Shown piece after piece: positions 1,959 through 11,889 of a stretch of 64,000 nt of DNA (positions within the stretch are counted from its first letter, which is position 1; each line of letters starts with the position of its first letter). The notes under the pieces were generated by a model. That model was given only the letters and a program-made list of their open reading frames with translations. It was not told the origin of the DNA and did no database searches. Source of the stretch: Desulfosarcina sp. BuS5 (GTDB lineage Bacteria; Desulfobacterota; Desulfobacteria; Desulfobacterales; BuS5); assembly GCF_028752835.1 (NCBI RefSeq), contig NZ_CP087952.1:2709041-2773040 (forward strand), given 5' to 3'. The position numbers and the translations under genes were made by a program.

Positions 1959-2705
1959 ATGATTAAAGTAGGAATTATTGGGGGCTCCGGTCTGGATGAT
2001 CCGGAAATACTCCATGGTGCAATAGAAATTAATGTCGATACACCTTACGGGAACCCCGCTTCTCCTTTAACAGCCGGCAGGATTGACGGTGTTGAGGTCC
2101 TTATTCTGGCCAGGCATGGTAAAAAACACAATTTCAGCCCGACCCAGGTTAATTACAGGGCAAATATTCATGCCATGAAAGACCAGGGCGTGACGCATAT
2201 TATTGCCACAACCGCCTGCGGAAGCCTCAGGGAGGAAATCCGCCGGGGCGATTTTGTCATCATAGATCAGTTTATAGATTTTACGAGACACAGAATTATT
2301 ACATTTAATGACTCCTTTGAAAACGGAGCCGCACACACACCTATGGCGGAACCGTTTGATGCCAAACTTAGGAAGCTTCTTTTTGAAACATCAGAAGAAC
2401 TCGGTTTCAGGGTACATAAAATGGGGACTGTGATTACAATTGAGGGTCCAAGATTTTCTACTATCGCCGAGTCGAAGATGTTCAGAATCTGGGGAGCAGA
2501 TATTATTAATATGTCTGTGGCTACAGAGGCTATATTGGCCAATGAGGCCGGTATTCCTTACTCTGTTGTTGCCATGTCCACCGATTATGATTGCTGGAAA
2601 GAGGATGAAGAGCATGTAACCTGGGCGGAGATCGTTGGAGTTTTTAAGGATAATGCAGACCGAGTAATAGAACTTTTAAAAAGAGTTATTCCCAGGATTG
2701 AGTGA
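1959..2705 (+). CDS. mtnP: S-methyl-5'-thioadenosine phosphorylase
   Basis: Phosphorolysis of methylthioadenosine to adenine and 5-methylthioribose-1-phosphate, a purine and methionine salvage step in the cytosol. The 248 residues open with the family motif VGIIGGSGL, followed by RHGKKHNFSP (phosphate/ribose region), TACGSLRE, FIDFTRHR and the purine-binding region EGPRFST plus NMSVATEA. STDYDCW near residue 210 is typical of MTAP rather than bacterial purine nucleoside phosphorylase. Length is normal. The stop at 2705 lies just before the apt start, so the two are probably one operon: the adenine released here is the substrate of Apt. Confidence 0.92.
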   Translation: MIKVGIIGGSGLDDPEILHGAIEINVDTPYGNPASPLTAGRIDGVEVLILARHGKKHNFSPTQVNYRANIHAMKDQGVTHIIATTACGSLREEIRRGDFVIIDQFIDFTRHRIITFNDSFENGAAHTPMAEPFDAKLRKLLFETSEELGFRVHKMGTVITIEGPRFSTIAESKMFRIWGADIINMSVATEAILANEAGIPYSVVAMSTDYDCWKEDEEHVTWAEIVGVFKDNADRVIELLKRVIPRIE

Positions 2706-2709
2706 AACT

Positions 2710-3234
2710 ATGATAAATATAAAAAACAGCATAAGAACCGTGCCTGACTGGCCGGTCAAGGGTGTTATGTTCAGAGACATAACGACTCTTTTGCAGGATC
2801 CTGAATCCTTACGGGCGGCTTGTGATTTGCTTTACGATCGTTACAAGTCTATGAATATAGACAAGGTTGTAGGGATAGACGCAAGAGGCTTTATTTTTGG
2901 CGCGGTTCTGGCGTATAAGCTCAATACCGGTTTTGTGCCTGTTAGAAAAAAAGGAAAGCTGCCCTATAAAACCATAAGCGCTGAGTATACGCTGGAATAT
3001 GGTAAAGATGTTGTTGAAATGCATGAAGATGCCGTTAAAAAGGATGAAAAGGTTGTCATAGTGGATGATCTGATAGCCACCGGCGGCACAATTGCCGCGA
3101 CTGTAAATCTGGTCGAAAAACTAGGCGGGGAGATATTAGAGTGTGCCTTTATAGTTGAGCTTCCGGATCTGAAGGGAAGGGAAAAGATAAAAGGTCAAAA
3201 AATATTTGCATTAACTGAATTCGAGGGTGAGTAA
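2710..3234 (+). CDS. apt: Adenine phosphoribosyltransferase
   Basis: Converts adenine and PRPP to AMP. ATG at 2710 is preferred; an in-frame TTG at 2698 overlaps the mtnP stop. The 174-residue protein shows the family order: VPDWPVKGVMFRDITTLL near the N-terminus, GIDARGFIFG (flexible-loop side), VRKKGKLP, and the PRPP-binding signature VVIVDDLIATGGT around residue 120. Length is typical. It lies 4 bases after mtnP, so the pair forms a methylthioadenosine-to-AMP salvage unit. The RnfB/GltD fusion follows after 23 bases and may be co-transcribed. Confidence 0.95.
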   Translation: MINIKNSIRTVPDWPVKGVMFRDITTLLQDPESLRAACDLLYDRYKSMNIDKVVGIDARGFIFGAVLAYKLNTGFVPVRKKGKLPYKTISAEYTLEYGKDVVEMHEDAVKKDEKVVIVDDLIATGGTIAATVNLVEKLGGEILECAFIVELPDLKGREKIKGQKIFALTEFEGE

Positions 3235-3257
3235 AACAGCCCTTTAGGAGTTGAAAT

Positions 3258-5363
3258 ATGATATACGCATTGGTGGCAATGGGAGGCTTGGGTCTTGTAA
3301 TCGGCGTGGTATTGGCTGCTGCATCAAAGATTTTCTATGTTTATGTTGATCCTTTAATCCTTGCGGTTGAAGATGCGCTTCCCGGTGCAAACTGCGGGGG
3401 TTGCGGGATGCCGGGCTGCAGCTCCAATGCCGAAGCGATTGTAGCAGGAAAGGCGGCTCCTAATTCATGTGTTGCCGCCGGGCCTGAAGTTGCAGAAGCG
3501 ATAGCCGAAATTTTGGGCGTGAAGGTCGAGGCAAAAGAGCCTGATATTGCGAGCTTGGGTTGCACCTATGGAGTTAAGGATGCTGATATCAAGTATATTT
3601 ATGACGGTTTGAATGACTGCAAGGCCGCGGCTCTTTTGAGCGGAGGCATGAAAGTATGCTCCATAGGATGTCTTGGTCTCGGAAGCTGCGTCAAGGCCTG
3701 CCAGTTCGGCGCTCTTTCAATGGGGCCGGATGGTTTGCCTGTGGTTGATGAAAAGCGCTGCACCGGCTGCGGGGCCTGTGAGCGGACATGCCCCAAAGGT
3801 ATTATTAATCTTTTATCTGTTACAAGACGTATTTTGCGTGAATATACCACCGGGATGTGTACAACCCCCTGCCAGAGAGCCTGCCCGGCCGGAATAGACA
3901 TATGTGAATATATAAAACAGATCAACCGGGGCGATTACCATAAGGCTGTACAGGTTATCAAGGAACGGCTGCCGTTTCCATCTGTTATAGGAAGAATATG
4001 CCCCAGGTTCTGCGAAGATGATTGCAGGCGTAAATATATAGATGAGCCTGTTGCAATAAATTTCCTTAAGCGCTTTGTTGCAGATTTTGAAAGGAAAAAT
4101 GGAGAAAGGGTTCTGCCGTATAAAGCGCCTGATACGGAGCGTAAAATTGCCGTTATAGGCGGGGGAGTTGAAGGCCTTTCAACAGCATTTTTTGCCGCCC
4201 GTCTTGGCCACCAGGTGACAGTCTTTGAGGCCTCCGATGTATTGGGCGGACTCATGCGCAGCGCCATTCACCGGCAAAGACTTTCAATGGATATCCTTGA
4301 CTGGGATATTGACGGTGTGTTGGAAATGGGTGTAACGGTTGAAACCAATAAAATTCTTGGCAATGATTTTTCGGTCGCGTCTCTTCTCAAGGATGGGTTT
4401 GAATCTGTTTTTGTTGCTTTAGGTGGCTGGGACAGCCGGCTTGCCGGAGGCTCCGCCAAAAGCTCCGATAAAGACTTGGGCAATGATTTTGTTGAGGCTA
4501 TACCAGGCGTTTCTCTTTTGTTGGATGTAGTTAAATCAGGCCGGGATGGCAAAGGTGGATTTTCGTGCAAAACCGATGTTGTAATATCAGGGGGTGCAGA
4601 ACTTGCCTTTGAGGCGGCAAGGATATGCAGGAAACTCGGCGCTGAAAAAATCAATATTCTTTTCAGAGAAACAAGGAAGGCCTGCAAGATCAATGCTGCT
4701 GAGCTGGAAAAAATTGAAAAGGAAAAAGCTGTAAAGATAATATTTAATGTCGGCATAAGCGGAATTTCAGGTGAATATGATAATCTTCTGGAACTGGAAT
4801 ATACCGAGCTTGACAGTATGAAAAAGAAAATTATTCCAGCGCATAATTTAATTGTTTCATCAGGCCGCCTGCCTGAATTTATTTTTTCTAATGCTGATGC
4901 GAATAAAGAGGATGATGCGGAACCGCAAACTGGTTTGCCGATTAAATGGAAAGGCGTTGAGCCCTATAAAACATCTGCCGATAAGAGCTTTACAGGCATT
5001 TTTTCAGATGTAGATACGCTGACCGATTATAGCGCTGCCATAAAAGCCATCGCAGCCGGAAGACGCGCTGCGGCTTCCATTCACCAAATTCTGTACGGGA
5101 TCATGGTTTCGGTTCCGGAAAATCTGGTTACACCCCAATCTTTAATTCAAAATGTCAATCATCTTGAAGCTGTAAAGGCTGTTTCGCGAGTAATTATGCC
5201 TTTAAGCTCCACACCGGATCCGGGAGCAACGGAGGAACTGGAAAAGGGCTTTTCCGAAGAAATGGCCCGCAAAGAAGCCGCCAGGTGCCTGCAATGCGGG
5301 CTTATATGTTATAAAAAAACTGCGGATGAAACAGCCGTTACTGAATTAGGCAAGGCCGCATAA
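3258..5363 (+). CDS. RnfB-like ferredoxin domain fused to GltD-like NAD(P)H-flavin oxidoreductase
   Basis: A 701-residue fusion. Residues 1-30 form one membrane segment as in RnfB. The 4Fe-4S signature ANCGGCGMPGCSSNA follows, then ferredoxin clusters (CSIGCLGLGSCVKAC, CTGCGACERTCPKG). From about residue 200 it is GltD-like: CTTPCQRACPAGIDICEYI, CPRFCEDDCRR, an FAD-binding IAVIGGGVEGLSTAF and a second nucleotide fold. The C-terminus has a further CLQCGLIC pair. It probably moves electrons between ferredoxin and NAD(P)H at the membrane; direction and partner are inference. No rnfACDEG genes are adjacent, so it is an orphan here. A good ribosome site (AGGAG) precedes the ATG. Confidence 0.8.
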   Translation: MIYALVAMGGLGLVIGVVLAAASKIFYVYVDPLILAVEDALPGANCGGCGMPGCSSNAEAIVAGKAAPNSCVAAGPEVAEAIAEILGVKVEAKEPDIASLGCTYGVKDADIKYIYDGLNDCKAAALLSGGMKVCSIGCLGLGSCVKACQFGALSMGPDGLPVVDEKRCTGCGACERTCPKGIINLLSVTRRILREYTTGMCTTPCQRACPAGIDICEYIKQINRGDYHKAVQVIKERLPFPSVIGRICPRFCEDDCRRKYIDEPVAINFLKRFVADFERKNGERVLPYKAPDTERKIAVIGGGVEGLSTAFFAARLGHQVTVFEASDVLGGLMRSAIHRQRLSMDILDWDIDGVLEMGVTVETNKILGNDFSVASLLKDGFESVFVALGGWDSRLAGGSAKSSDKDLGNDFVEAIPGVSLLLDVVKSGRDGKGGFSCKTDVVISGGAELAFEAARICRKLGAEKINILFRETRKACKINAAELEKIEKEKAVKIIFNVGISGISGEYDNLLELEYTELDSMKKKIIPAHNLIVSSGRLPEFIFSNADANKEDDAEPQTGLPIKWKGVEPYKTSADKSFTGIFSDVDTLTDYSAAIKAIAAGRRAAASIHQILYGIMVSVPENLVTPQSLIQNVNHLEAVKAVSRVIMPLSSTPDPGATEELEKGFSEEMARKEAARCLQCGLICYKKTADETAVTELGKAA

Positions 5364-7451: not shown

Positions 7452-8836
7452 TTAACTGCATTTTGAAAACCCGCAAGCATGACAAACAAGACACCCTTCC
7501 ATATGCGCCAATAAGCCGCCGCATTCAGGGCAGACACCAATCATAGGGTTCTTTTCAACAAGATTCGAACCTGACAGACCTTTCAAAACCTGGGCAATTG
7601 CGTCCGGGCATGAGAGTACCATTTTGCCGTTCTGCCATGCCGGTGAAGGGCACCTGATTCCTGTAAGCTGTTTTATTATAGCTTCTGCTTTAACACCTGA
7701 GCGCAAGGCCAGGGAAATTAACCTGCCGGCGGCTTCTATCTGGGAAGAAGCACATCCTCCGGTTTTGCCCATCTGGGCAAATACTTCACACATGCCTTTT
7801 TCATCATAATTGATTGTAACATAAAGTTTGCCGCACCCGGTGCTGATACGTTCCGTAATGCCATGTGTCCGCGCCGGTCTCGGCCTGGGCGCGATTGTTT
7901 CCGCTCCCCCGGCGACAGCTTCAATATTCAGCACCTGCCTGTCACGACTTCCGTATCTATATATAGTTACACCTTTGCAGCCCTTATGGTATGCTGATAG
8001 ATAGGCTCGCTCAATATCTTCAGGTGTTGCATCAAAAGAAAGATTAATTGTTTTGGAAACTGCATTATCAGTAAATTTTTGAAATGCAGCTTGAATTTTT
8101 ACATGCCATTCGGCTGAAATATCATGGGATGTTACAAATATTTTTTTAAAATGAGATGGTATCTTGTCGACCTGCTGTATGGAACCTGTTTCGGAAATAG
8201 CCTTCACAAGTTCATCGTTAAAAAACCCTTCTTTTTTTGCTTTTTCAACAAAAATGGGATGTAATTCAATAAGCTTTTTTTTATCAAGCACATGCCGCGC
8301 ATATGTTAAAGCGAAAATCGGTTCTATACCGCTTGATGTGCCTGCAATAATGCTTATGGTACCTGTCGAAGCGATTGTTGTAGTAGTGGCATTGCGCATA
8401 TACGGAGTTGAAGGGTGATTGAAAATACTATCCTTGTAACCTGGAAAATTACCCCGTTTTTTTGCAAGACCGGCAGATGCCTTTCTGGATTCCTGTAAAA
8501 TATAAGACATAACCGTTTCGGCCTGTTTAACAGCCTCATCAGAATCATAGGGTATGTCAAGCTGTACCAGCATATCTGCAAACCCCATAATGCCGAGTCC
8601 GATTTTTCTTGTGCTTTTGCTCATTCTTTCGATACGTGCAAGGGGATATTTATTAACCTCAATGACGTTGTCAAGAAAATGAACTGCATCATGCACCGTT
8701 CTTTTAAGGCGGTTAAGATCTAATCTGTTTTTTGTGATCATTGCGGATAGATTTATGGAACCGAGGGTGCAGGATTCATATGGCAGCAGGGGCTGCTCAC
8801 CGCAGGGATTTGTGGCTTCAATTTTTCCAAGTTCCA
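7452..8836 (-). CDS. nrdJ: Ribonucleotide reductase, B12-dependent (class II), exon 2
   Basis: The C-terminal two thirds of NrdJ, which reduces ribonucleotides to deoxyribonucleotides with adenosylcobalamin. It has the active-site NPCGEQPLLPYESC, FADMLVQLDIPYDS, the phosphate-binding TGTISIIAGTSSGIEP, and a C-terminal zinc-ribbon-like pair (CPECGG, CHACGF) for re-reduction. It has no start of its own; the frame continues into the group II intron at 8837. Joining 8836 to exon 1 at 11100 restores FLELGKIEATNPCGEQ in frame and yields 724 residues, the normal length. Function therefore depends on splicing. Confidence 0.92.
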
Positions 8837-11099
8837 GGTAGGAGCATCGGTTACCCGACGCCCCCCCTACAGACCCGTACGTGAAGATTTCCCTCATACG
8901 GTTCCTCGGTTCAAATCCTTTTTACCGGATTATCAACCAAACAGGCGACACCCCGTTTGGCGTATAACTTTGCAGCCCTTACGGCATCAAATATTATGGA
9001 CTATTCTGGGTAATGGCAGTGGGTATGTTGTGCGCAAGTCCTCGAACATTACTTCGCCCTTGTGACTTCTTCGGCTTAACCATCGACGCCATGCTTTCTC
9101 AGTATATTCAAACACAACTTCCAGCACTTTGTAGTTACTTATTACTCCAAAGTACTGGTAAAAACCTCGCAGTTTACTGCAAAGAATCTCATACTGCTCG
9201 GCCATTGGCTTATGACGGTTATCCTTGCACCATATCCATATTCTCTTCATAAAACGGCTTGAACGCTTTCTTGCCGTCTTTTTCTTTATTACCATGTACC
9301 CTTTTAATGATTTTGACCAGTAAAATGTAAACCCTAAAAAATCAAACGTCCCGTTTCCCTTTCCGCTAATGCGTTTGGAAAATCGAATCAGTTTTGTCTT
9401 TTCCGGGTGAAGTGACAGCTCGAACTGTTCGAACCGCCTGGGTAATACATCCATGACACGCAATGCGTCTTTTTCATACTCGAACCCGAGGATGAAATCA
9501 TCCGCCCAGCGTATGATGGAGCATCTCCCTTTCATCCGGGGGATCACTTCTTTCACGTACCAGTCATCTAAAACATAATGAAGAAAGATATTACTGAGCA
9601 CAGGGGAAATTACTCCTCCCTGTGGAGTGCCCGTTTCAGAGTACGTCAGGTTGCCTTCCTCCATTACGCCTGCATTCAACCACTTCCCTATCAGGCGAAT
9701 CATTCCGCCGTCACTTACTCTCCGACGTATCATGTCTTTAAGTAACTCGTGATTAATATTGTCAAATAGTCCTGTAATATCTGCGCTTACTATCCAGCTG
9801 ATATTCTGCTTCAAGCATTGCTCACGTAAATCTTTGATTGCCATGTGTTGGCTCCGACCTTTTCTGAATGCATGGGAAAAATTGTAAAAATTCCTGTCAA
9901 ATATGACATTCAATATGGCTGCTGCTGCTTTCTGGACAATTTTATCCTCAAGTACAGGTATGCCAATTGGACGCTTTTTCCCTCCTTCCTTGTCTATCCA
10001 GATACGCTTTACAGGAGACGCAACGTACTGTCCTCTCCGCAGTCGTTCATACAGATTATAGAGGTTTTGATCAAGATTTTCGGCATACTCCTTTGCCGTA
10101 ACCTTGTCCACTCCTGCAGATTTGCTTTTCCGAATTTTACGAAAGGATTGTTTCAGTAAATCAAAGTCTATCCGATGGACTACTGATGTAAATACCAGTT
10201 CAGGATTACTTTGAGCAAGCAGCTCGATTTTGATAAGGGATGACCCACCTGTTAACACCGGTGGTTGTCCCCATTCTATCGGTCTGGAATTGCAAGCGAC
10301 CGTTCTTGCAATTTCTCGGCTTTTTGTTGATATGGTTTGTGACATCTGTGTATCTCCCATAATTCCTGCCAAAAAAACGTTATACCCTGCTTCACCTTCC
10401 CTGCAGTGGGTCGCTTGGGCATCACTTCCCCACCTTTCCGATCAAGATAGTTCAATTCTTAATCATCGGTACTATGATCTGCTAAGACTTCCGAATGTTT
10501 ATCTCAGGTTCGTTCGCTCTTCGCTATCCTCCCCTGATACCTTGTATCGCCCATCTTTTAATGTTTGTGTTTCTGCCAATGGCAGACTCGTTGCAAGGCG
10601 GGACATTCCTATGCAACGCCGGGATTTCGCTTGCGCTGGATTTCCTGTTACCGTTCTTTTTACCCAAGGAAACATCCGGGTCTCCCAAGTTCCCGAGCTA
10701 CCCCTTTGAGTACATGCCCTGGTCTAAGACCCCGGTGGTGTCCTGAATACTTGCCTTAGCATATTCAGGACTGCTGCCTTCCGCTGTCTCCAAAGCGTCG
10801 GCTTTTTCCTGCAAGCAGGATTATCACAATGACCACAACCATACATTTTTCGGGGCTCAATACAGAGCCTGCAATCTTGCTCCGTCCAGCTCCAGACTCC
10901 CGTTACCGGGTTTACCTGTGGACTTCGCTACTGACCTGCTGGTTAGTCTTTAGTCAGGTGGGACTATCTTAACATCAATGCCAGAGCAAGCCCTGCAGAG
11001 ATGAAGGAAACAAACCGTTTCCCGAGCACCCACTTGGTAACAATATCGAGTTTCAAAGACCTTGTGTCTTATCCCAACGATTCGGATTTATCTTGGCAC
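8837..11099 (-). mobile_element. Group II intron interrupting nrdJ
   Basis: A 2263-base insertion on the coding strand of nrdJ. Its 5' end reads GTGCC and it carries a long structured 5' region (about 10400-11099). An intron-encoded reverse transcriptase follows, then a domain V-like hairpin (CCGTATGAGGG...CACGTACGGG) and a domain VI-like helix near 8837-8865. The boundaries were chosen because removal gives one uninterrupted NrdJ frame (790 + 1385 = 2175 bases, 725 codons with stop). Ends could be off by a few bases. It belongs to a different group from the attC introns at 44 and 57 kb. Confidence 0.88.
8987..10372 (-). CDS. ltrA: Group II intron-encoded reverse transcriptase/maturase
   Basis: A 461-residue intron protein. 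RT blocks in order: KIRKSKSAGVDKVTAKEY, RPIGIPVLEDKIVQKAAAAI, SHAFRKGRSQHMAIKDL, VSADITGLFDNINH, GTPQGGVISPVLSNIFLH, and the catalytic box IIRWADDFILGF, where Trp replaces the usual Tyr of YADD. EKTKLIRFSKRIS and FDFLGFTFYWS follow, then a maturase X domain with KLRGFYQYFGVISNY. No HNH endonuclease domain is seen. It probably helps the intron fold and splice from nrdJ mRNA and drives retrohoming. The frame is intact, unlike the RT in the attC intron at 57 kb. Confidence 0.93.
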   Translation of the reverse strand: MAGIMGDTQMSQTISTKSREIARTVACNSRPIEWGQPPVLTGGSSLIKIELLAQSNPELVFTSVVHRIDFDLLKQSFRKIRKSKSAGVDKVTAKEYAENLDQNLYNLYERLRRGQYVASPVKRIWIDKEGGKKRPIGIPVLEDKIVQKAAAAILNVIFDRNFYNFSHAFRKGRSQHMAIKDLREQCLKQNISWIVSADITGLFDNINHELLKDMIRRRVSDGGMIRLIGKWLNAGVMEEGNLTYSETGTPQGGVISPVLSNIFLHYVLDDWYVKEVIPRMKGRCSIIRWADDFILGFEYEKDALRVMDVLPRRFEQFELSLHPEKTKLIRFSKRISGKGNGTFDFLGFTFYWSKSLKGYMVIKKKTARKRSSRFMKRIWIWCKDNRHKPMAEQYEILCSKLRGFYQYFGVISNYKVLEVVFEYTEKAWRRWLSRRSHKGEVMFEDLRTTYPLPLPRIVHNI

Positions 11100-11889
11100 G
11101 AAAAGGGGTCGGGTTTTTCTCGTTGATACGATCGATAAAAATTACTCCCGGCTCACCGGACAGCCATGCAGAATAAATAATCATATCAAAAATTTTTTTT
11201 GCGGGCATTGATCCAACAGGATTGCCGGTACGCGGATTAACAAGGTCATACTCCGAATCTCTTTCAAGGGCGTCCATGAATTGTTCGGTTATGGCGACAG
11301 ATACGTTAAAATTATTTAATGTGCATTGATCGGTTTTTGACTGTATAAATGCCTCGATGTCAGGATGATCCACCCGCAAAACTCCCATGTTGGCACCTCT
11401 GCGGGTCCCTCCCTGCTTAACAGTCTCGGTTGATATGTCGTAAACAGACATAAATGAGACCGGGCCGCTTGAAACACCTGCGGTTGATTTAACGAGATCA
11501 TTGGCAGGTCGTATTTTTGAAAAGGAAAAACCTGTGCCCCCTCCGCTTTTGTGGATCAAGGCAGTATGTTTTAGAGTTTCAAATATACTATCCATTGAAT
11601 CCTCTATGGGAAGTACAAAACATGCTGCCAGTTGTCCTAACCGGCGCCCGGCATTCATAAGGGTCGGCGAATTCGGCAAAAACCATATGTTCGACATTAT
11701 TTTTAAAAATTTTTTTTCTGTTTTTTCTATATCCGCCTTATTATCAAAAATAGCATCTGCTACAGCTATAGCCTTTGCGACCCTTGCAAAAAGTTGAGAG
11801 GGTGTTTCGATAATTTTGCCATGGCTGTCTTTTTTGAAATACCTTTTTTCTAACACAGCCTTTGCATTTTGTGAAAGTGATATTGTCAT
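11100..11889 (-). CDS. nrdJ: Ribonucleotide reductase, B12-dependent (class II), exon 1
   Basis: The N-terminal 263 codons plus one base of NrdJ. It contains the entry segment [15 protein letters not shown], the redox-cysteine segment [29 protein letters not shown], and [21 protein letters not shown]. Translation continues into the intron as [16 protein letters not shown] and stops, so unspliced mRNA gives a truncated protein. The start lies 4 bases after the coaD stop, so nrdJ is likely the last gene of rsmD-coaD-nrdJ. Confidence 0.92.

Follow-up and report, generated by a model that had tools for sequence, protein, structure and literature searches.

An RnfB-GltD fusion with broken NAD(P)H motifs, encoded apart from the rnf operons of Desulfosarcina sp. 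BuS5, as a candidate in-trans subunit of Rnf2-type complexes

The RnfB proteins and GltD-bearing proteins closest to the gene described here include: (i) the plain RnfB of Rnf1 complexes (A. woodii / C. tetanomorphum type), (ii) the RnfB2 of the Rnf2 complexes of Desulfobacteraceae (D. toluolica type, ~700 amino acids), in which an RnfB module is followed by a Fer4_20 domain and a module for flavin adenine dinucleotide (FAD) and NAD(P), and (iii) the GltD subunits of bifurcating transhydrogenases of the StnC/NfnABC type (PDB 8oh5, 9bov and 9n5u), which combine GltD with Fer4_20. The subject of this report is an RnfB-GltD fusion of Desulfosarcina sp. BuS5 that is encoded apart from other rnf genes (hereafter, like its relatives of the same type, an orphan). 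The gene lies in a stretch of 64,000 nucleotides (the window; contig NZ_CP087952.1 of RefSeq assembly GCF_028752835.1, G000:C1:2709041-2773040) of a 4.18-Mb genome. The genomes, loci and families with which it is compared are numbered with the prefixes G, L and f, respectively.

An RnfB of ~700 amino acids with NAD-binding sites, accompanied by an RnfC without NADH domains, is described in D. toluolica and D. multivorans, and the RnfC of this Rnf2-like type is said there to require an acceptor other than NAD+/NADH (PMC5109826). A report that uses the name Rnf2 assigns the complex to the Desulfobacteraceae core genome and finds it constitutively made in six strains (PMC11887813). StnC and NfnB have a pair of Rossmann folds, one for FAD and the other for NADPH, and the NADPH site of StnC is combined with NuoG/FdhF-like parts (PMC10482914). 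A parallel may be proposed with the Rnf of Methanosarcina acetivorans, in which electrons are proposed to pass from ferredoxin to the multihaem cytochrome MmcA; the accessible passages of PMC6703419 and PMC12174285 mention no GltD fusion for that Rnf, and the rnf2 cytochrome considered below matches instead the class III family (PF02085). An orphan, NAD(P)-blind RnfB-GltD is not described in the literature covered, which extends to neither the supplement of PMC11887813 (Rnf2 RnfB/C domains) nor subscription papers.

The orphan has in common with plain RnfB a hydrophobic N-terminal stretch (a putative helix), the PF04060 domain and a 2[4Fe-4S] ferredoxin domain, but plain RnfB lacks a GltD module and is encoded in its rnf operon. 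With RnfB2, the orphan shares domain order and length at 38-42% identity; however, RnfB2 is encoded beside cytochrome c3-CDGEA genes and keeps the GGGN and YRR motifs, neither of which holds for the orphans examined. Compared to StnC, the orphan carries RnfB in place of the NuoG/FdhF-like parts and its NADPH motifs are broken, while HydB/HydC-like partners of the StnC/NfnABC kind stand beside the fusion in many relatives. The intact 701-residue protein comprises an RnfB part (residues 1-192), a two-cluster domain of the NfnB/DPYD type (~200-285), a GltD-like flavoprotein part (~290-616) and a tail with three cysteines (Table 1). Pfam matches cover the FeS domain PF04060 (residues 41-72, 43.8 bits, cut-off 23), Fer4 clusters (within residues 137-183), Fer4_20 (residues 201-282, 82 bits, cut-off 25.8) and Pyr_redox_2 (49.3 bits, cut-off 26.1). 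The NCBIfam cut-off for rnfB is passed (TIGR01944, 80.6 bits, cut-off 68.7), and those of the longer RnfB equivalog NF005503 (180.2 vs 252 bits) and of three GltD-type families (294.4/916, 285.3/516 and 205.5/471.75 bits) are missed. Among PDB chains, the RnfB 7zc6_B covers residues 2-192, and the GltD-bearing chains 9n5u_A, 9bov_A and 8oh5_C match from ~182-191 onward. A reading of the window made earlier from its sequence only (the sequence-only reading) had seen an RnfB anchor and Fe-S module fused to an FAD/NAD(P) GltD-like module; Pfam, TIGR01944 and PDB matches bear out the fusion but not a normal NAD(P) module, the motifs of which are broken.

The fusion is not a chance juxtaposition, since it is 92% identical to its copy at L020, is under low dN/dS (ratio of nonsynonymous to synonymous substitution rates; 0.17 vs L020 and 0.16 vs L021) and has an architecture that recurs in many genomes of the order. 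A near copy, 92% identical, is noted in the metagenome-assembled genome 'Desulfobacterales bacterium isolate G11'. By region, dN/dS is 0.02-0.05 in Fer4_20 and 0.22 in residues 401-560.

The motifs GGGPAG, GGGN and YRR bind NAD(P)H in NfnB and GltD proteins. In an alignment of 75 fusions, 47 orphans were compared with 16 Rnf2 fusions (the rows dropped being four partial or near-copy orphans, six duplicate Rnf2 and two of a third type). GGGN(T/S)A(I/V)D and YRRTRxEMP are present in 16/16 Rnf2 fusions. By contrast, Pro304 of GGGPAG is found in none of the 47 orphans, all of which read GGG(V/I/A/M)xG, compared to 16/16 Rnf2; the second Arg of YRR (R471) is likewise in 0/47 orphans (Glu in 34) vs 16/16 Rnf2; and N448 is in 2/47 orphans (Lys in 24) vs 16/16 Rnf2. 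D452 and M476 are retained in 13/47 and 2/47 orphans, respectively, and some relatives have deletions in the NAD(P) region. Mean pairwise identity in the NAD(P) Rossmann part is 0.35 among orphans vs 0.73 among Rnf2 fusions. The corresponding orphan/Rnf2 values are 0.67/0.68 for the hydrophobic N-terminal stretch, 0.75/0.66 for the RnfB clusters, 0.75/0.80 for Fer4_20, 0.66/0.72 for the first FAD part and 0.63/0.75 for the second. The cysteines at positions 46, 49, 54, 71, 102, 121, 134, 138, 144, 148, 168, 171, 174, 178, 201, 205, 209, 248, 252, 256, 677, 680 and 684 are each present in 47/47 orphans (selenocysteine counted as cysteine). Of the FAD fingerprint, the window protein has GGGVEG and has VD in place of GD; G585 is found in 38/47 orphans and D586 in 46/47, and the GltD module probably still binds FAD. 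On the evidence of this alignment, the NAD(P)H-binding motifs of the orphan group are broken and the listed Fe-S ligands are kept.

The genome of strain BuS5 has two rnf operons. A PF04060 search of it finds six places, two of which, besides the window gene, are RnfB genes in rnf operons: (i) L008, a classical C-D-G-E-A-B operon with a plain RnfB of 271 amino acids and an RnfC (RnfC1) that has PF01512, SLBB and the motif GLGGATFPT, and (ii) L007 (Rnf2), with cytochrome c3-C-D-G-E-A and a 687-residue RnfB-GltD (RnfB2), the arrangement published for D. toluolica and D. multivorans. A gene for a cytochrome c of class III (PF02085) heads the Rnf2 operon, the RnfC of which (RnfC2) matches PF01512 weakly and has neither an SLBB match nor the NADH motif. 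The window gene is the third RnfB-type gene of the genome, the RnfB-GltD fusion as such being already known. RnfD occurs no closer than 609 kb from it, and the open reading frames (ORFs) listed for ~8 kb on its downstream side and 12 kb on its upstream side include no other rnf gene; as the sequence-only reading had noted, the fusion is not encoded with rnfACDGE. That reading had proposed a genome search for rnf genes and had added that an rnf operon lacking rnfB and expressed with the fusion would make the gene simply RnfB; both operons of this genome have their rnfB, and operons without one occur in relatives. Elsewhere in the genome (L017, G000:C1:3416084-3417664), a 1425-residue open frame has a GltD stretch 36% identical to the fusion; this genome is without NuoF.

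Fusions of either type are matched in 322 of 389 genomes of the order (E<=1e-75, two candidates scored per genome). In the class, 135 of 241 genomes match (E<=1e-150, four candidates scored per genome), the best matches listed being 49-100% identical and of the orphan type; among genomes with completeness of 90% or more and contamination of 5% or less, the count is 112/186. A tree of the GltD part (54 rows, with a long-row warning for one row, of the third type) has two groups, orphan (100/99) and Rnf2 (100/99), and a tree of the RnfB part (51 rows) recovers Rnf2 (99/100). The window fusion falls outside the Rnf2 clade, and the orphans are a separate group on the GltD part. The two types also differ in position. 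In a sample of the window genome and 30 others (of which 24, mostly in good assemblies, have a fusion and six have none), an RnfD is present within 10 kb of 25/25 Rnf2-type fusions vs 0/21 of the orphan type (two of the 21 on contigs lacking RnfD), and the sole third-type fusion has none within that distance either. Twenty of the 30 genomes have an orphan-type match (truncated in G056, split in G151), all with an Rnf2-type fusion and RnfD as well; RnfD is present in 45/45 orphan genomes tested, strain BuS5 included. In G151 (L124 7740-8078 and L096), most of a fusion lies ~575 kb from a stretch of 68 residues, which is 85% identical to the L081 fusion and follows NuoEF, by rearrangement or as a second copy.

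Some relatives have an Rnf2 operon without rnfB. Of 24 further orphan genomes, chosen because the order search showed one fusion only, RnfD is present in all, and an RnfB2-type fusion piece is absent in 22 (G122 and G361 have contig-edge fragments). Ten of the Rnf2 operons of these 24 genomes were fetched and searched for RnfB by tblastn, a search which, as a control, finds RnfB in L007 and in L111-L120 (ten loci around known Rnf2 fusions). In eight cytochrome c3-RnfC2-D-G-E-A loci (G325, G348, G249, G075, G172, G007, G191 and G053), no RnfB is found anywhere in the locus, of which 5 kb or more beyond RnfA was covered. In G048, the rnfB2 directly after RnfA is gutted to ~75 codons from its start and ~65 from its end (L139 11773-12700), and the G376 locus stops at a contig end before RnfA. 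The orphan fusions of G048, G325, G249, G172, G075 and G053 align over at least 668 residues without inner stops and likewise have broken NAD(P) motifs. The nine genomes with missing or gutted rnfB2 span f36, f30, f5, f46 and f51; thus, the loss probably occurred more than once. The most economical interpretation of the rnfB-less operons is that the orphan may act in trans as the RnfB of these complexes. The sequence-only suggestion of an alternative Rnf entry subunit gains support from these operons (8/10 missing rnfB) and from the presence of a third RnfB-type gene. As to nicotinamide use, GxGGAxFPT is absent from RnfC2 in 21/21 Rnf2 loci searched and present in the one RnfC1 (L008); thus, RnfC2 together with an NAD(P)-broken orphan may form a complex without a recognized NAD(P)H site.

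With moderate confidence, the window gene is proposed to encode a third RnfB (labeled here RnfB3) that serves in trans as a subunit of an Rnf2-type complex and has a broken NAD(P)H site. RnfB3, in which the predicted RnfB membrane anchor and ferredoxin module are joined through the NfnB-type two-cluster domain to the GltD flavoprotein module, would most likely dock on the RnfA/E membrane core of an Rnf2-type complex and replace, or alternate with, the RnfB2 fusion of the rnf2 operon. In strain BuS5, which has RnfB2, it would be an alternative input subunit. Reduced ferredoxin is the predicted donor, its electrons entering through the RnfB3 clusters, and in many relatives a HydB/NuoF-type NADH module encoded just upstream may provide an additional input. 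The way out would be the Rnf core, from which the class III cytochrome c encoded in the rnf2 operon may receive the electrons, and ions would be pumped in the process. Because that operon starts with such a cytochrome, cytochrome c3 or menaquinone is a plausible acceptor. We infer the assembly with Rnf2, the electron donor and acceptor, and the pumping. RseC adjoins the orphan in many genomes and, in f36, is part of the Rnf2 operon, which is counted in favor of RnfB3 as an Rnf2 subunit.

Several observations weigh against this assignment. The Rnf2 of the window genome keeps its own RnfB2 and so does not require the orphan as its sole RnfB. In the eight genomes with rnfB-less operons and in G048, plain RnfB genes elsewhere were not searched for; plain RnfB adjoins rnf operons in G029 and G033. 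In G063 (L143), the Rnf2-type operon lacks an RnfB, and a fusion is absent from the genome at E<=1e-75 (plain RnfB elsewhere unsearched); thus, a missing cis rnfB alone is no proof that the orphan fills in. The RnfB-part tree does not resolve the orphans as one clade (3 changes, the third-type row and the Rnf2 branch falling among them). The NAD(P) region itself is not free to drift: the first Arg of YRR (470) is retained in 44/47 orphans and the Gly pair 445-446 in 45/47, and the purifying selection on residues 401-560 indicates a fold that is still constrained. The remaining two points are the NuoF gene found just upstream of many orphans and an operon of G171, which bear on the alternative considered next.

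A possible, though unlikely, alternative is that the fusion belongs to a membrane-anchored complex independent of Rnf, in which it would join HydB/HydC-like NuoF-NuoE (NADH/flavin mononucleotide) and RseC and transfer electrons among NADH, ferredoxin and an acceptor in the membrane. Neighbors were sought at 48 orphan loci of 24 families (L026-L067 and L101-L106, the window excluded); the flanks covered were ~1-1.5 kb, or less at some loci. The commonest neighbor sought is RseC, which directly follows the fusion on its strand in 36/48. A HydB-like NuoF, not an rnf gene, stands just upstream on the same strand in 23/48, and a DRTGG-domain gene is upstream in 15/48, one or the other being present in 37/48. 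The best PDB matches of this NuoF are NiFe hydrogenase subunit B and HydB, and an FdhA-like gene is divergent in four loci of f36. In G171 (L110 2395-10610, - strand), the gene for a third-type RnfB-GltD, in which the NAD(P) motifs are again broken, overlaps one for FdhA-NuoE (972 amino acids) that is followed by a NuoF-GltD gene (1012 amino acids); this operon of RnfB-GltD with NuoF and FdhA would also fit a complex of its own and possibly encodes a membrane-anchored formate/NAD(P)H enzyme. Against independence from Rnf, the NuoF partner, as known from Stn/Bfu bifurcating complexes, is absent from the window genome, where PF01512 finds only the two RnfC and no match is obtained at E<=1e-100; G072 and G368, which bear the fusion, likewise have none at E<=1e-100, and G020 and G033 have NuoF of the fusion-neighbor type without the fusion. 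An obligate pairing with NuoEF is rejected on these absences. The presence of RnfD in all orphan genomes tested also speaks against such independence.

Two further alternatives are improbable, to a similar degree. In the first, raised in the sequence-only reading, the fusion would be a stand-alone ferredoxin:NAD(P)+ oxidoreductase in which the GltD module reduces NAD(P)+ with ferredoxin electrons from the RnfB module; the overall domains and clusters resemble those of NfnB/GltD, and the retained first Arg and the constraint on residues 401-560 agree with such an activity. With P304 and R471 gone from all orphans compared, N448 from nearly all and deletions in some relatives, however, the NAD(P)H motifs are broken and this role is unlikely. 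In the second, the fusion would not conserve energy but would be a redox-sensing or repair partner of RseC, similarly to the SoxR-reducing system. SoxR is reduced in E. coli by RsxABCDGE together with RseC (PMC12174285), and RseC is the frequent neighbor noted above; yet, RseC also occurs inside Rnf2 operons of f36, and in the window genome it is not beside the fusion but far off (G000:C1:3498823). A functionless, decaying duplicate of RnfB2, to which the eroded NAD(P) region and the two separated fusion pieces of G151 might point, is very improbable, and a simple relic is rejected, given the Fe-S cysteines kept in 47/47, the low dN/dS (0.16-0.17 overall, lowest in Fer4_20) and the occurrence in 135/241 class genomes.

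Certain orphan relatives are likely selenoproteins. Codon 46, that of the first cluster-binding Cys in the RnfB FeS domain, is an in-frame TGA in 11 orphans of f8 and f29 (L030, L042, L047, L051, L065 and L101-L106), and the eight TGA rows placed in the trees form one group. A 5-bp hairpin follows the TGA codon in 11/11 vs 4/38 Cys-type rows (the Cys-type row L046 was not located), with a mean energy of -10.0 vs -4.1 kcal/mol. tRNA-Sec scores above cut-off in 9/11 TGA genomes, and the other two are 83-84% complete. Thus, TGA at this position probably specifies selenocysteine as an Fe-S ligand. A UxxC selenoprotein family annotated 'Fe-S cluster domain-containing protein' (NF005503/PRK07118) is already listed (PMC9312934 and PMC13188914); the UxxC is shared with the 11 orphan relatives as a likeness at the family level, while the window gene has TGC. 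In L030 and L065, an in-frame TGA likewise occupies a Cys position in the CxxC of the RseC gene next to the fusion on its downstream side, and the two adjacent genes are both probable selenoprotein genes.

Table 1. Features of the RnfB-GltD fusion and of the two genes preceding it (window positions).
Feature	Position	Strand	Basis
mtnP, S-methyl-5'-thioadenosine phosphorylase	1959..2705	+	TIGR01694 above cut-off
apt, adenine phosphoribosyltransferase	2698..3234	+	TIGR01090 above cut-off
AGGAG, likely ribosome-binding site, 7 nt 5' of the fusion ATG	3246..3250	+	read from sequence
RnfB-GltD fusion ORF (orphan), 701 aa, ATG start	3258..5363	+	ORF list, Pfam, NCBIfam, PDB matches
Putative RnfB-type N-terminal hydrophobic helix (residues 1-32)	3258..3353	+	by eye; aligns with RnfB
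FeS domain PF04060 (residues 41-72), Cys 46, 49, 54, 71	3378..3473	+	Pfam
Cys46 codon, TGC in the window gene; TGA (probable selenocysteine) in 11 relatives	3393..3395	+	
RnfB 2[4Fe-4S] ferredoxin domain (residues 134-182)	3657..3803	+	Pfam, conserved Cys
Fer4_20, NfnB/DPYD-type two-cluster domain (residues 201-282)	3858..4103	+	Pfam; Cys 201, 205, 209, 248, 252, 256
FAD Rossmann part (residues 290-400), GGGVEG replaces GGGPAG	4125..4457	+	alignment
Eroded remnant of the NAD(P) Rossmann region (residues 401-560)	4458..4937	+	alignment; mean identity 0.36 among orphans, 0.66 among Rnf2 fusions
SGGAELAFE replaces (V/I)GGGN(T/S)A(I/V)D	4587..4613	+	alignment
FRETRKACK replaces YRRTRxEMP; first of two Arg retained	4662..4688	+	alignment
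Second FAD part (residues 580-616), SDVD replaces (T/A)(A/G)GD	4995..5105	+	alignment
C-terminal Cys tail, Cys 677, 680, 684	5286..5309	+	each 47/47 orphans

The fusion stands behind mtnP and apt, which overlap by 8 bp, with a gap of 23 bp after apt that is equal in L020 and L023; an ion-channel/TrkA gene lies downstream on the opposite strand. The position behind purine salvage genes, pointed out in the sequence-only reading, is correct but appears positional, as relatives differ. The order mtnP-apt-fusion is found in the window and L020 (and mtnP-apt-fusion start in L023), while PNP or mtnD are divergent neighbors in several relatives and elsewhere are not adjacent; a role in purine salvage is rejected. 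The window has other features of note. A group II intron divides a ribonucleotide reductase gene (large-subunit type; 7452-11889, - strand) into two pieces, 11053-11889 and 7452-8897; it is marked by the Rfam matches group-II-D1D4-6 (10720-10967) and Intron_gpII (8832-8906) and a reverse transcriptase ORF (8987-10372). The intron is probably repeated in the genome, since a 159-residue ORF of the same reading recurs at L008 10795-11274. An IS1-type transposase (367-1386) is upstream of the fusion, and two transposase-like genes are seen by eye at L009 (6261-7643 and 7698-9080).

A broader picture, offered tentatively and less firmly than the assignment of RnfB3 itself, is that the Rnf2 of sulfate reducers would be a modular pump with two interchangeable inputs: RnfB2, which is NAD(P)H-competent and comes from the operon itself, and an NAD(P)H-blind RnfB3 with its gene elsewhere, frequently next to a HydB/NuoF NADH module and RseC, some lineages having RnfB3 only. 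If so, a complex of RnfB3 and RnfC2 without any NAD(P)H site would be a pump from ferredoxin (or NADH via NuoF) to cytochrome c3 or menaquinone, and several lineages would have dropped RnfB2 and come to depend on RnfB3 alone. A widespread second RnfB that is NAD(P)-broken, and that remains where the operon copy is gone, would point to a non-nicotinamide route, for which the genomes with an rnfB-less rnf2 operon would be clean test cases.

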